From: a virus
Reading direction: 5' to 3' (one strand)
IMG/VR virus record: IMGVR_UViG_3300044612_001891
Span: 1 to 27,306 of that record
DNA: 27,306 bases
Made by a program: the position numbers and the translations under genes. Of this stretch, positions 3,183 through 10,105 are shown piece after piece; within the stretch, counting starts at the first letter, position 1; each line of letters opens with the position of its first letter. The notes under the pieces were generated by a model. It did not search any database. It was not told the origin of the DNA and saw nothing but the letters and a program-made list of their open reading frames with translations.

Positions 3183-3211
3183 TTGATTTTGTCATTGTGT
3201 TGGTGTATGGT
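3183..3211 (+). promoter_or_regulatory. Rightward promoter of a face-to-face pair
   Basis: TTGATT (3183-3188), 17 bp and TATGGT (3206-3211) face right towards the gene at 3242. The -10 shares five bases with the -10 of the leftward promoter on the other strand. GTGTT (3197-3201) and AACAC (3218-3222) form an inverted repeat around both. Confidence 0.6.
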
Positions 3212-3235
3212 ATACATAACACAAACGAAAGTCAA
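3207..3235 (-). promoter_or_regulatory. Leftward promoter of a face-to-face pair
   Basis: On the minus strand TTGACT (3230-3235), 17 bp and TACCAT (3207-3212) face left towards the gene at 3172. Two polymerases cannot occupy this and the rightward promoter at once. Confidence 0.6.
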
Positions 3236-3478: not shown

Positions 3479-3912
3479 AACACACACAAGAAACGCTAGA
3501 TACATTATTGGAAAATGGAATTAGAGATTTTTCAGGATGCGATTTATCGGGTTTGAGTTTCAAAAAGTATTCCAAAGAAAATCTGAGCATTTTTGCAGAA
3601 ATGAATTTAGATGAATCATTTTTTTGTCGAGATAACAATCTTGATTTTGAGCAATTATGTTTAGCATCCCTAAAGGGCGCTTACATGGAAGAAATGATTG
3701 TGACTTGGGGCATAACTTTTTGGTGTGAGAAAAAAAAGTATAATTATGAAGAAAAAGTTTGTTTAAAAGAAAAAATAAAATCATTCTCTATGGCTTACAA
3801 AGAAACAAATAATGGTGAGTTCTTACTAAAATCAGATATTCCCTTTATGATAAAGGGATGCTCTATGAAAAGATTTCAATACCTAAAGCCATGTTTGGAT
3901 AATTTACTATGA
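3475..3912 (+). CDS. Short paralogue of the pentapeptide-repeat protein
   Basis: The 145-residue product begins with a module nearly identical in layout to that of the next gene: M-K-x-T-Q-E-x-L-D, then GIRDFSGCDLSGLSF. In the neighbour this becomes GIKDFSGCDLSGLKF and runs on into pentapeptide repeats. Here the repeats stop after about 35 residues and the rest is a Lys/Glu-rich region with no clear family. It overlaps both neighbours by ATGA, so all three are translated from one mRNA. It looks like a tandem duplication in which only the N-terminal module was kept. A partner or modulator of the full-length protein is an inference. Confidence 0.7.
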   Translation: MKHTQETLDTLLENGIRDFSGCDLSGLSFKKYSKENLSIFAEMNLDESFFCRDNNLDFEQLCLASLKGAYMEEMIVTWGITFWCEKKKYNYEEKVCLKEKIKSFSMAYKETNNGEFLLKSDIPFMIKGCSMKRFQYLKPCLDNLL

Positions 3913-4739
3913 AAAAGTACACACAAGACGAACTAGATGATGCACTAAGTGACGGAATCAAGGATTTTTCGGGATGTGATCTATCGGGCTTAAAGTTTAT
4001 AGGATTAAGCCTTTGCGCGGCCAACTTTGTTGGGTCGGATATGATTTCAACAGAAATAGTGACTTGTGACTTTTCATGCTCTAATTTTGACGGTGCAGAT
4101 TTAACGGGTTCCTATATCACGGAATCCAAATTTAATGGCTCAACGTTTAATGGATCCAAACTGAAAAAATGCCAGATTTTGCTTTGCGATTTTAGTCCAC
4201 ATATTTATCAATACGCTGCAACTGTAGACAAAGAACGAAAAGTAAAAAAAACAGTTATTCACGGGTCAAATTTTTCAGGTTCTTGTCTTTATGGTTCAGA
4301 TTTTTGTCATATTGAGATAATGGGAACAGATTTTTCTCACGTCGTAACGTTTACAGATAATGCAAAAACGAATGAAACTATTGAAGCTCTTTTTGGTAAA
4401 AAATGGACCTTAGATACAATCAAAGGGGTAAAATTTTGCGGTGCTAATTTACTCGGATGCTGTTTTACAGAGGCAAGCCTTGCCAAGGCTAATTTTTATG
4501 GGTGTCAACTGGATGGTGTTTCTTTTAGACAGGCCACCCTAATTCATTGCGACTTCCAACACGCAAAACTTAAGGGATCAAATTTCCGACACGCATACAT
4601 TCATGCTGGTGATTTTGATTATGCAGATTTATCGGGGGCAAACTTTCAATGGGTGCCATTAAAAAACCCTGATTTTAAAGGCGTAACCCTTATCGGAACG
4701 GAAACCAATGGGGCGCGTTTGCAAGAAATAACCTATTAA
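3909..4739 (+). CDS. Pentapeptide-repeat protein, 276 aa
   Basis: Pentapeptide repeats of the A(D/N)LxG and xxFxx type occur in two blocks, about residues 18-96 (for example SNFDGADLTGSYI, SKFNGSTFNGS) and 172-270 (VKFCGANLLGC, ANFYGCQLDG, ADLSGANF). They are separated by a charged, non-repeat insert. Such repeats fold into a right-handed quadrilateral beta helix; some family members (Qnr, MfpA) mimic DNA and bind gyrase, but most are of unknown function. There is no signal peptide or membrane segment, so it is probably cytoplasmic, and unusually many Cys are present. It is the third gene of the operon from the promoter at 3183. A DNA-mimic or anti-host-defence role is possible but unproven. 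Confidence 0.85.
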   Translation: MKKYTQDELDDALSDGIKDFSGCDLSGLKFIGLSLCAANFVGSDMISTEIVTCDFSCSNFDGADLTGSYITESKFNGSTFNGSKLKKCQILLCDFSPHIYQYAATVDKERKVKKTVIHGSNFSGSCLYGSDFCHIEIMGTDFSHVVTFTDNAKTNETIEALFGKKWTLDTIKGVKFCGANLLGCCFTEASLAKANFYGCQLDGVSFRQATLIHCDFQHAKLKGSNFRHAYIHAGDFDYADLSGANFQWVPLKNPDFKGVTLIGTETNGARLQEITY

Positions 4740-5320: not shown

Positions 5321-5349
5321 ATACTATACAAAAAAACCCCTTGACACAA
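5321..5349 (-). promoter_or_regulatory. Leftward promoter with hairpin leader
   Basis: On the minus strand TTGTGT (5344-5349), 17 bp and TAGTAT (5321-5326). Transcription would begin near 5314, so the first bases of the RNA (CACCGTG, 5313-5307) can pair with CACGGTG (5272-5266) to cap the leader. The -35 overlaps that of the rightward promoter. Confidence 0.45.
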
Positions 5350-5369
5350 GCCCTTTTGTTGTGTAGTGT
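5341..5369 (+). promoter_or_regulatory. Promoter with TGTTGT-N13-ACAACA operator
   Basis: TTGACA (5341-5346), 17 bp and TAGTGT (5364-5369). The inverted repeat TGTTGT (5357-5362) and ACAACA (5376-5381) encloses the -10. The 25-bp dyad is almost identical to the one at 8638-8662. Confidence 0.75.
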
Positions 5370-5399
5370 ATACAAACAACAACAAACAAGGAAACCCTT

Positions 5400-8097: not shown

Positions 8098-8245
8098 AGC
8101 CGCCTGTTTTGTCTTGATTGTCACGGTGCTGGCTTTGCTGTCTTTGATAGTGCTGGACGATCAAAAGGTGTGTTTTGACTATGGTCGCCTGAAGGATAAA
8201 ATGGTGTCTATGGTTGTGGATTCTGAAACGGTGCCTGTGGAGTAA
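8087..8245 (+). CDS. 52-residue single-span membrane protein
   Basis: A short gene between the acidic protein and the nuclease. ATG at 8087 has TGGAG upstream, and TAA at 8243-8245 overlaps the ATG of the nuclease gene. After MILKAA come about 19 hydrophobic residues (roughly 7-26, CFVLIVTVLALLSLIVL), then a charged 26-residue tail. This is a single membrane helix, N-in by the positive-inside rule, with its C-terminus outside. It fills the operon gap exactly, which supports its being real. The function is unknown; small phage membrane peptides often inhibit host functions. Confidence 0.65.
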   Translation: MILKAACFVLIVTVLALLSLIVLDDQKVCFDYGRLKDKMVSMVVDSETVPVE

Positions 8246-8625
8246 TGTTTAAAAGAAAAAAAGCATTTTTTAGTCCAGAGGACCTTTTGCAACGGGCCAT
8301 AATAGAGCACCTTCGGTTGGTTATGAAAAAAGGCATTGTCTACCATATTAAGAATGACGGTGAAACTGAGGCAAAACGCAAAAGAAACGCAGCTATTGGC
8401 GTTCTCTCTGGTGTTGCTGACTTGCACGTTGTATGGGCAGGGGGCCATGGGTATATTGAAGTCAAGCTACCCAAAAAAACCAGCGTTCAAAAGCCCAGCC
8501 AAATAGAATTTGAAAAAACCTGCAAGGCATTAAAAGTACCCTACGCCGTTTGTCGATCCCTTGACGATGTGACGCAGTTTGTTTTGGATAACAAAATACC
8601 CAATAGAATATCAAATAAACGTTGA
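8245..8625 (+). CDS. VRR-NUC domain nuclease
   Basis: 126 residues forming a stand-alone VRR-NUC (PD-(D/E)XK superfamily) domain: an N-terminal helix with Glu12 and Glu21, then GVADLHVV (56-63, catalytic Asp59), YIEVKLPK (70-77, Glu72-x-Lys74), and the helix with PSQIEFEK (84-91, Gln86). The stand-alone phage form is about this length. Members cleave branched DNA such as Holliday junctions or flaps. It closes the operon from 7550, beginning at the stop codon of the small membrane gene, and lies upstream of the GlyRS-like and ERF recombinase genes. A role in recombination or resolving replication intermediates is likely. Confidence 0.85.
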   Translation: MFKRKKAFFSPEDLLQRAIIEHLRLVMKKGIVYHIKNDGETEAKRKRNAAIGVLSGVADLHVVWAGGHGYIEVKLPKKTSVQKPSQIEFEKTCKALKVPYAVCRSLDDVTQFVLDNKIPNRISNKR

Positions 8626-8650
8626 CTTGGTTTGTGTTGTTGTGTATTGT
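8622..8650 (+). promoter_or_regulatory. Promoter-operator of the GlyRS-like gene
   Basis: TTGACT (8622-8627), 17 bp and TATTGT (8645-8650). The inverted repeat TGTTGT (8638-8643) and ACAACA (8657-8662) with 13-bp spacing matches that at 5357-5381 at all but one position across the dyad. The -35 overlaps the stop codon of the nuclease gene. Confidence 0.75.
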
Positions 8651-8683
8651 ATACAAACAACATTATATAGCAAAAGAGTATTT

Positions 8684-9379
8684 ATGAAACAATGTTTTAC
8701 CAATGCCACAGTAGCATGGAATGAGTTAGAAATCATCCGGCGAGAAAGTTTAATCCGTGAAATACCTATTTTGCTGAACAACGTTTGGCGAGGTCTAAAT
8801 CCTGCTGTAAGATTTGAGCGTGTAGAAACACCTATTCTAACGCCAGCATCTTATTTACAAAGCCATATAAATGCAAAATTTGAACTTATTGAGGCTGGAA
8901 AGCGTGGCTTTTTGAGGCCGGAAACAACAGCCGGAACGTTTGAAGCCATGAGCATGTTGTTTCCACAAAAAGAATCCATGAAAAAGCATTTGCCTTTGTG
9001 TCTTTGGCAAGTGGGTTTATCTTTTCGAGATGAAAAAAACCCAGACACCATGAGGGCCAGCAAACTAAGATTGGTTCAATTTTACCAAATAGAATTTCAG
9101 TTATTTTGCAGTCATGGAACAAAGGCTCCTTATTTAGAAACTGCCGCTAATGCTCTCACGGACTTTTATTGTGGGCATTTAGAAAATCCAGAGGATTTGC
9201 CACATTATAGCGAAAAAACGATTGATTGGGTTATAGATACTTTAGAAGTGGGCGGGTTGTCTAAGAGAACAGATTGGGAACACGGCGAAGTTTACGAGGT
9301 TGCCATAGGCATAGACAGGCTTGTCGCAAAACAATTACAGACTTTTTATTCAATCCAAGACGAAAGAAGGTTGACTTAG
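8684..9379 (+). CDS. Stand-alone glycyl-tRNA-synthetase-like catalytic core
   Basis: The 231-residue product follows the catalytic domain of alpha2-type (archaeal/eukaryotic-like) glycyl-tRNA synthetase, a class II enzyme. Motif 1 lies around 42-52 (VRFERVETPIL). The GlyRS signature RGFLRPETTAG (74-84) aligns with RGYLRPETAQG. Motif 2 starts with SFRDE (113-117) and continues through IEFQLF (136-141). KRTDWEHG (194-201) matches the GIANRTDYDL region, and motif 3 is YEVAIGIDR (204-212). The anticodon-binding domain and most insertions are missing, so it is about half the usual length. In motif 3 the usual EPS(F/Y)G reads EVAIG, so a serine in the glycine pocket is replaced by alanine. It is monocistronic behind a dyad promoter. 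Ligation of an amino acid to something other than tRNA is possible. Family placement is strong; the substrate is unknown. Confidence 0.85.
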   Translation: MKQCFTNATVAWNELEIIRRESLIREIPILLNNVWRGLNPAVRFERVETPILTPASYLQSHINAKFELIEAGKRGFLRPETTAGTFEAMSMLFPQKESMKKHLPLCLWQVGLSFRDEKNPDTMRASKLRLVQFYQIEFQLFCSHGTKAPYLETAANALTDFYCGHLENPEDLPHYSEKTIDWVIDTLEVGGLSKRTDWEHGEVYEVAIGIDRLVAKQLQTFYSIQDERRLT

Positions 9380-9399
9380 TATCGCACTGTGTGTATTGT
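9371..9399 (+). promoter_or_regulatory. Promoter of the ERF gene
   Basis: TTGACT (9371-9376), 17 bp and TATTGT (9394-9399), followed by TTACAAACATCAACA, which keeps the right arm of the operator but not the left. The -35 lies within the last codons of the GlyRS-like gene. Confidence 0.7.
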
Positions 9400-9427
9400 T
9401 TACAAACATCAACACAAAGGAGCCTTT

Positions 9428-10105
9428 ATGAGTATCTTGTACGAATTACAGAAAAACATTCATGCGCCAAAGGACAAAAAAAACACCTTTGGAAACTACA
9501 ATTATAGGACCGCTGAGGGCATTCTTGCGGTGGCTAAGTCTGTGATGCCTGAGGGCGTAAGCATTGTGCTTAGTGACGATGTTATCGAGATTGGGGGGCA
9601 TATTTTTGTGAAGGCAAAAGCAACCTTAAAATCAGGGAGTGACGTTATTGCTGAATCTTTTGGTTTTGCTGGGCATCCTTTGGATAAAAAGGGAATGGAT
9701 TTTTCGCAAATCACAGGGGCTTCTTCGTCTTATGCCCGTAAGTATGCTTTGCAAGGCTTGTTTGCCCTTGACGATAGTTCCGCTGACCCTGACGTTACCA
9801 ACAAGCACGAAACAGACACAAGAACGAAAACTGCCCCTGCAAAAATTTACGCGCCTTCTACGCCAGCGGCAGACCAAGGAACAGGACCAAAAGTGGCAAG
9901 TGATAAGCAAAAAGGCATGATAACTGTTCTTGGGAAAAAGCTGAATCCAGATGTAGCGGCCAAGATCAAAGCAGATTTTAAAATTATGACAAACGATCAG
10001 TGGAATTCTATGACATCATTTACGGCATCCAAACTTATTGAGGCTTTGCAAAATGCGGAAAAGTCGCCACAAGAACACGTTTTAGATGATGAAATTCCTT
10101 ATTAG
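9428..10105 (+). CDS. erf: ERF-family single-strand annealing recombinase
   Basis: 225 residues. The N-terminal 130 show the ERF superfamily pattern: start helix LYELQKNIHAPKDKK, FGNYNYRTAEGILAVAK (21-37), then VKAKATLKSGSDVI, and GASSSYARKYALQGLFALDD, which corresponds to the G-x-S-Y-(A/G)-(R/K)-(K/R)-Y-x-L hallmark. A Thr/Pro/Ala linker leads to a small helical C-domain. The last eight residues (VLDDEIPY) copy the acidic tip of SSB proteins (DDDIPF) used to recruit partners. AAGGAG precedes the ATG at 9428. The protein anneals single strands during phage recombination or circularisation, and would pair naturally with the nearby nuclease. Confidence 0.9.
   Translation: MSILYELQKNIHAPKDKKNTFGNYNYRTAEGILAVAKSVMPEGVSIVLSDDVIEIGGHIFVKAKATLKSGSDVIAESFGFAGHPLDKKGMDFSQITGASSSYARKYALQGLFALDDSSADPDVTNKHETDTRTKTAPAKIYAPSTPAADQGTGPKVASDKQKGMITVLGKKLNPDVAAKIKADFKIMTNDQWNSMTSFTASKLIEALQNAEKSPQEHVLDDEIPY

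Follow-up and report, generated by a model that had tools for sequence, protein, structure and literature searches.

Aminoacyl-tRNA synthetase cores that exist as free-standing proteins have repeatedly been found to perform unexpected chemistry. Among the class II cores, the carrier protein ligases are related to SerRS and EpmA is related to LysRS, and the single-domain (N-terminal-lacking) PylRS is a catalytic core of ~270 aa that charges tRNA without recognizing the anticodon. Both the amino acid:[carrier protein] ligases, some of which use glycine, and EpmA/PoxA are class II cores devoid of the tRNA-binding domains (PMC9437257). Another example is Glu-Q-RS (YadB), a free-standing GluRS core without an anticodon domain, which glutamylates queuosine (PMC9437257). 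Huge phages, in turn, encode full-length tRNA synthetases that are distinct from, but related to, the enzymes of their hosts (PMC7162821). The free-standing cores are a known kind of protein, and the GlyRS-like family described here appears to be new among them: a search of the open-access literature returned no description of this family.

A GlyRS-type catalytic core without accessory domains

The gene in question was recognized in a stretch of viral DNA of 27,306 nucleotides (IMG/VR record IMGVR_UViG_3300044612_001891, hereafter the window), where it occupies positions 8684–9379 on the plus strand, from an ATG at 8684 to a TAG ending at 9379, and encodes a product of 231 aa, exactly as initially annotated. 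A longer open reading frame starting with a TTG at 8579 is unsupported, as the relatives start at the same place as the 231-aa protein (MKNCF, MKTCY, MQKCF). Profile matches identify the alpha2 GlyRS as the closest sequence relative. The single window sequence matches the NCBIfam models PRK04173 (E = 1.5e-14) and TIGR00389 (E = 2.9e-9), the former at 53.7 bits, far below its curated cut-off of 312, and the latter likewise under its cut-off; PRK04173 is matched by all of the 67 family members, and a profile of the core family matches GlyRS structures at 2.7e-18. The Pfam class II core model PF00587 matches the protein at E = 2.3e-5, under its cut-off, and PHROGs contains no family for it. The protein stops shortly after motif 3, leaving no room for an anticodon domain, the short stretch between motif 1 and the RPET signature could not accommodate the GlyRS insertion, and an HGTP_anticodon domain is absent from the 231 residues according to both a Pfam search and a structure model. 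This confirms that the gene encodes the catalytic core of a GlyRS-type enzyme, with neither the insertion nor the anticodon domain. The reading of the initial annotation, of a GlyRS-like core with class II motifs and no anticodon domain, is borne out by the PRK04173 match, the motifs and the compact model, and GlyRS models are the best matches in the profile search against class II synthetases that it had proposed.

The active site was mapped through a family-profile alignment to the Thermus thermophilus GlyRS (1ATI/1B76), with conservation counted over 60 diverse family members. The RPETTAG signature (residues 78–84, 8915–8935, plus strand, as all of the following) contains E80, equivalent to E188 of the glycine pocket in Thermus. 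Motif 2, FRDE (residues 114–117, 9023–9034), contains R115 and E117, equivalent to R220 and E222, and is followed by R129 (Thermus R231), by a second glycine-pocket residue, E137 (Thermus E239; 9092–9094), and by R195 (Thermus R311; 9266–9268). Motif 3, EVAIGIDR (residues 205–212, 9296–9319), provides E205 and R212, which align with the Glu and Arg of the GlyRS motif E-P-S-x-G-x-D-R. Each of these residues is found in 60/60 members, except R129 (59/60), and the one mapped position that departs from GlyRS is A207, replacing the motif 3 Ser (Thermus Ser361), with Ala in 59/60 members. The invariant R115, E117 and R212, along with the fold match, place the family in class II, and the glycine pocket typical of the alpha2 GlyRS (E188, E239, the motif 3 Glu and R311) is present and invariant. 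Thus, apart from the Ser-to-Ala change, all of the mapped residues, which we take to bind ATP and to form the negatively charged glycine pocket, are essentially invariant. As this pocket is complete, the enzyme quite likely activates glycine, and its substrate would be glycine or some other amino acid of very small size. An ATP and amino-acid pocket, whose absence would have undermined the original interpretation, is therefore present.

A structure model of the window protein, built on an alignment of 60 family members, is a confident one (mean pLDDT 94.7, pTM 0.90) and shows a compact core of 231 residues. The best Foldseek matches in the PDB are the single-domain PylRS (3.7e-11) and GlyRS (7.8e-11), so the structural comparison suggested at the outset does place GlyRS among the closest folds, and the closest viral structure model is a 222-residue phage protein, 74% identical, whose name derives solely from a class II profile. 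While PylRS is the top structural match, its sequence match is far weaker (about 1e-6 to 2e-6, versus 2e-18 for GlyRS), the pocket is of the GlyRS kind, and the tRNAs with a CUA anticodon that are found near some of the loci differ in their acceptor stems, so the core does not group with PylRS. With the alpha2 GlyRS (PRK04173/TIGR00389) it shares the RPET signature, motifs 2 and 3 and the acidic residues of the glycine pocket, but it is half as long, lacks insertion 1 and the anticodon domain, has Ala in place of Ser361, and forms a separate clade.

Distribution and evolution of the family

The window gene is not an isolated case: it represents one branch of an extensive phage family of free-standing cores of 220–275 aa. 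They are encoded by jumbo phages of Caulobacter, Brevundimonas, Sinorhizobium and Xanthomonas, by dozens of jumbo viral contigs, by a clade of smaller phages that includes the window, and by chromosomes of Rhizobium, Devosia, Phenylobacterium and Paraburkholderia. Among annotated phages, tblastn recovered relatives in Caulobacter jumbo phages (39% identity), Brevundimonas phages (34%), Sinorhizobium phage Phosso (31%) and Xanthomonas phage XbC2 (29%), along with two metagenomic phages of >600 kb; some of the phage relatives are annotated as hypothetical and others as aminoacyl- or serine-tRNA synthetases. A profile scan identified 108 loci in viral contigs and 83 in bacterial genomes, the latter mainly of Rhizobium, but also of Devosia, Mesorhizobium, Shinella, Phenylobacterium and Paraburkholderia. 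The match in one locus (L073; G013:C1:364549-365439) is in two pieces, with an in-frame insertion of ~60 aa near profile position 75–80. The isoelectric points of the family (medians 5.5–6.2) are uninformative as a sign of RNA binding.

A tree was built from 75 cores together with 5 true GlyRS, and in it a very long branch separates all of the cores from the GlyRS. The window gene belongs to a 13-member clade with other small-phage contigs and one phage of 372 kb. The copies from Rhizobium, Devosia and Phenylobacterium make up one clade (97*) nested within the jumbo-phage sequences, and the Paraburkholderia copies nest elsewhere, the simplest reading being that bacteria captured phage core genes at least twice, a number that is approximate as the tree was built by a quick method and leaves many forks open. 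Purifying selection on the family is strong, with dN/dS of 0.02–0.12 in most of the unsaturated pairs and up to 0.39 in two. The phage-derived cores at chromosomal and plasmid loci (L091-L160, L162-L165, L167-L170), retained in Rhizobium, Devosia, Phenylobacterium and Paraburkholderia, stand alone among housekeeping neighbours and are likewise under purifying selection.

The initial annotation had pointed out that, in a host using the unrelated GlyQS enzyme, such a core would not be a simple copy of the host gene. This holds for the proteobacterial chromosomal carriers tested, 5/5 of which possess GlyQ and no alpha2 GlyRS. Like the synthetases of huge phages, the cores are phage-encoded and occur in tRNA-rich genomes, but they lack an anticodon domain and have no comparable enzyme in the tested bacterial carriers. 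Only 2 of 289 evenly sampled alphaproteobacterial genomes contain the core, and 28 others were matched via a full-length GlyRS. These 28 are small genomes (0.8–2.5 Mb; G105, G106, G178 and G199, for example) encoding a full-length GlyRS of the alpha2 type within a class where GlyQS is the prevalent enzyme. One alphaproteobacterial MAG of 1.0 Mb (L166/G030) contains the core and matches neither GlyQ nor alpha2 GlyRS; it could be incomplete, or the core could lie on a binned phage contig.

Linkage to phage tRNA genes

Linkage to tRNA genes was assessed over 50 independent jumbo-type loci, <80% identical to each other, with expected rates taken from positions drawn at random in five of the genomes. 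A tRNA gene is found within 1 kb of the core in 21/50 loci, versus 8.7% expected (largest 12.1%), and within 6 kb in 26/50, versus 16.9% (largest 25.0%), with binomial p values, depending on the rate used, of 3e-10 to 1e-7 and 2e-8 to 4e-5, respectively. The jumbo records searched as a whole carry 6 to 69 tRNAs each, and 3/4 smaller records carry none. However, translation genes cluster in jumbo phages anyway, and so the linkage is indirect evidence; about half of the jumbo loci, all of the chromosomal copies examined and the window phage have no tRNA nearby.

As to which tRNAs are involved, in five fully read phage genomes 9/11 tRNA-Gly genes, versus 63/176 other tRNA genes, are within 6 kb of the core (Fisher p = 0.003), an excess that is only suggestive, as tRNA genes close to the core were the reason for choosing these genomes and tRNA genes tend to be arranged by codon family. 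The idea of tRNA-Gly as the sole linked tRNA was dropped, as over the 50 loci Gly and Ser tie at 10, with Glu at 9. An unusual discriminator base was also considered and rejected: phage tRNA-Gly genes are nearly all U73, the host type, which would allow the host GlyRS to charge them. In 5/26 loci, four of these five from related phages, the tRNA closest to the core has a CUA anticodon. In these four the tRNA gene is 0.4–1.9 kb upstream of the core (L005:7483-7558, L077:4984-5059, L079:5515-5590, L086:4032-4105), and several of them also have CysRS, RNA ligase and R2K ATP-grasp genes nearby. Full recoding of TAG was rejected for Phosso, since TAG is the stop codon of 2/25 genes at the locus.

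Genes for Pth2, T4-type RNA ligase, CysRS and R2K ATP-grasp proteins are found nearby in subsets of the loci. In a survey of jumbo phages, the genes for RNA ligases, TROVE proteins and Pth2 are discussed in terms of tRNA repair and ribosome rescue, and searching its text by terms gave no hit for the core family (PMC7824862). A protein, a nucleotide or a DNA base had originally been proposed as the acceptor, and the tRNA-array context speaks for RNA no less than for any of these.

Function and alternative explanations

Our main reading, with a probability of roughly 0.4, is an active enzyme that adenylates glycine and most likely passes it to tRNA or another RNA, with the anticodon unread. Like class II cores in general, the small protein would probably dimerize; it would bind ATP along with glycine (or a different amino acid of very small size) and presumably form glycyl-AMP. 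Since the anticodon and insertion domains are missing, the acceptor would be recognized by some other feature, most likely at the end of a tRNA or a tRNA-like RNA. An RNA acceptor is favoured by the linkage to tRNA arrays, by the precedent of the single-domain PylRS and by the ability of GlyRS to charge acceptor minihelices (PMC9908026). Speaking against it are the copies with no tRNA nearby and the loss of the acceptor-stem-binding insertion. In the human GlyRS an insertion contacts the acceptor stem, and its counterpart is among the parts missing from the core. In jumbo phages the core would support phage tRNAs during infection, and the small phage of the window and some of the bacteria may have later acquired the core gene alone. 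A more specific version, in which the family represents the smallest natural GlyRS, anticodon-blind and glycinating phage tRNAs (perhaps including the nearby CUA-anticodon ones), moved to small phages and captured by chromosomes at least twice, appears unlikely.

A missing tRNA-binding half does not appear to be supplied by a second gene, an option that would have weakened the initial interpretation: HGTP is absent from 12/17 phages carrying the core, and in the other 5/17 it sits inside ORFs of 395–665 aa, and a separately encoded anticodon half is thus rejected. The transfer of glycine to an acceptor other than tRNA, such as a host protein, a carrier protein, a metabolite or a DNA base, in the manner of EpmA, the carrier protein ligases or AsnA, would fit well with the loss of both tRNA-recognition regions from a protein with a fully kept pocket, as well as with the persistence of chromosomal copies, with no linked tRNA genes, in GlyQ-bearing bacteria, and it has known precedents (PMC9437257). 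We nevertheless find it less likely than an RNA acceptor: all-against-all clustering of neighbours at about 170 loci revealed no partner or acceptor gene common across groups, no modification pathway is seen at the locus, and the linkage to tRNA arrays in phages is strong. The resemblance to carrier protein ligases and EpmA is in the class II core and the lost tRNA-binding domains, but the core loci encode neither a carrier protein nor EF-P. The carrier protein domain PF00550 is absent from 14/17 phages carrying the core, and in the other 3 none is near the core gene; a carrier protein as a general companion is thus rejected, and a host carrier protein would be possible.

If glycine were instead added to a nucleoside inside a tRNA, both the architecture shared with Glu-Q-RS, a free-standing core with no anticodon domain, and the tRNA-array linkage would be accounted for; but Glu-Q-RS is a class I enzyme of another fold, acting with glutamate, so the parallel is an analogy only, and the core has no link to queuosine here and no recurring tRNA-modification gene beside it in the neighbour clustering, making this scenario improbable. 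A slim chance remains for glycyl-AMP itself, or a dinucleotide such as Ap4A, being the product, with an action on signalling or on NAD/ATP pools, as the catalytic residues are kept and NAD-metabolism genes are nearby in CcrSC and XbC2, but not in most loci. A non-catalytic regulatory subunit, similar to HisZ or to the accessory subunit of the mitochondrial DNA polymerase, is suggested by weak HisZ-model matches of some members; such relatives of synthetases normally lose catalytic residues, and with all of the mapped ones invariant and no conserved partner, this role seems very improbable. Finally, the short length might suggest a host GlyRS fragment in decay, but lengths and ends are similar across the 75 tree members, a long branch sets them apart from GlyRS, dN/dS is far below 1 and the gene has its own promoter, so that the chance is negligible and a degraded host enzyme is ruled out by the tree and by selection.

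The family is widespread, strongly selected, retains its glycine pocket, and has apparently passed from jumbo phages to bacterial chromosomes. Should the core charge tRNA with no anticodon domain of its own, it would provide a natural test of a minimal synthetase, with a bearing on the origins of synthetases and on orthogonal translation tools; if the acceptor is other than tRNA, a novel modification would be in use by phages and rhizobia.

Surroundings of the gene in the window

The window represents a P22-like, short-tailed phage, as judged by the genes for head, scaffold, head-closure and DNA-ejection proteins, and no tRNA genes are found in it. The placement of the core between a nuclease and an ERF recombinase, as originally described, is confirmed: upstream is a gene for a small VRR-NUC-like or Holliday-junction-resolvase-like nuclease (8245–8625, plus strand), recognized by sub-threshold Pfam and PHROG matches, and downstream is a gene for an ERF-type single-strand annealing protein (9389–10105, plus strand; E = 1e-27), with a likely ATG at 9428. 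A promoter of its own had also been proposed for the core gene, of a repressor type; the promoter is indeed there, as TTGACT-N17-TATTGTATAC at 8622–8654 on the plus strand with 0 mismatches, and the repressor part is a supposition from the partly palindromic form of the motif. Near-copies on the plus strand are found at 3183–3215, 5341–5373 and 9371–9403 (0.21 matches expected), the last of these ahead of the ERF gene and overlapping the end of the core gene. The presence of the motif before the core, before ERF and in two other places suggests that the core gene may belong to a shared early regulon. The early region of the phage also encodes, at 3909–4739, a pentapeptide-repeat protein of 276 aa (Pfam 2e-35), such repeats being known from DNA mimics.
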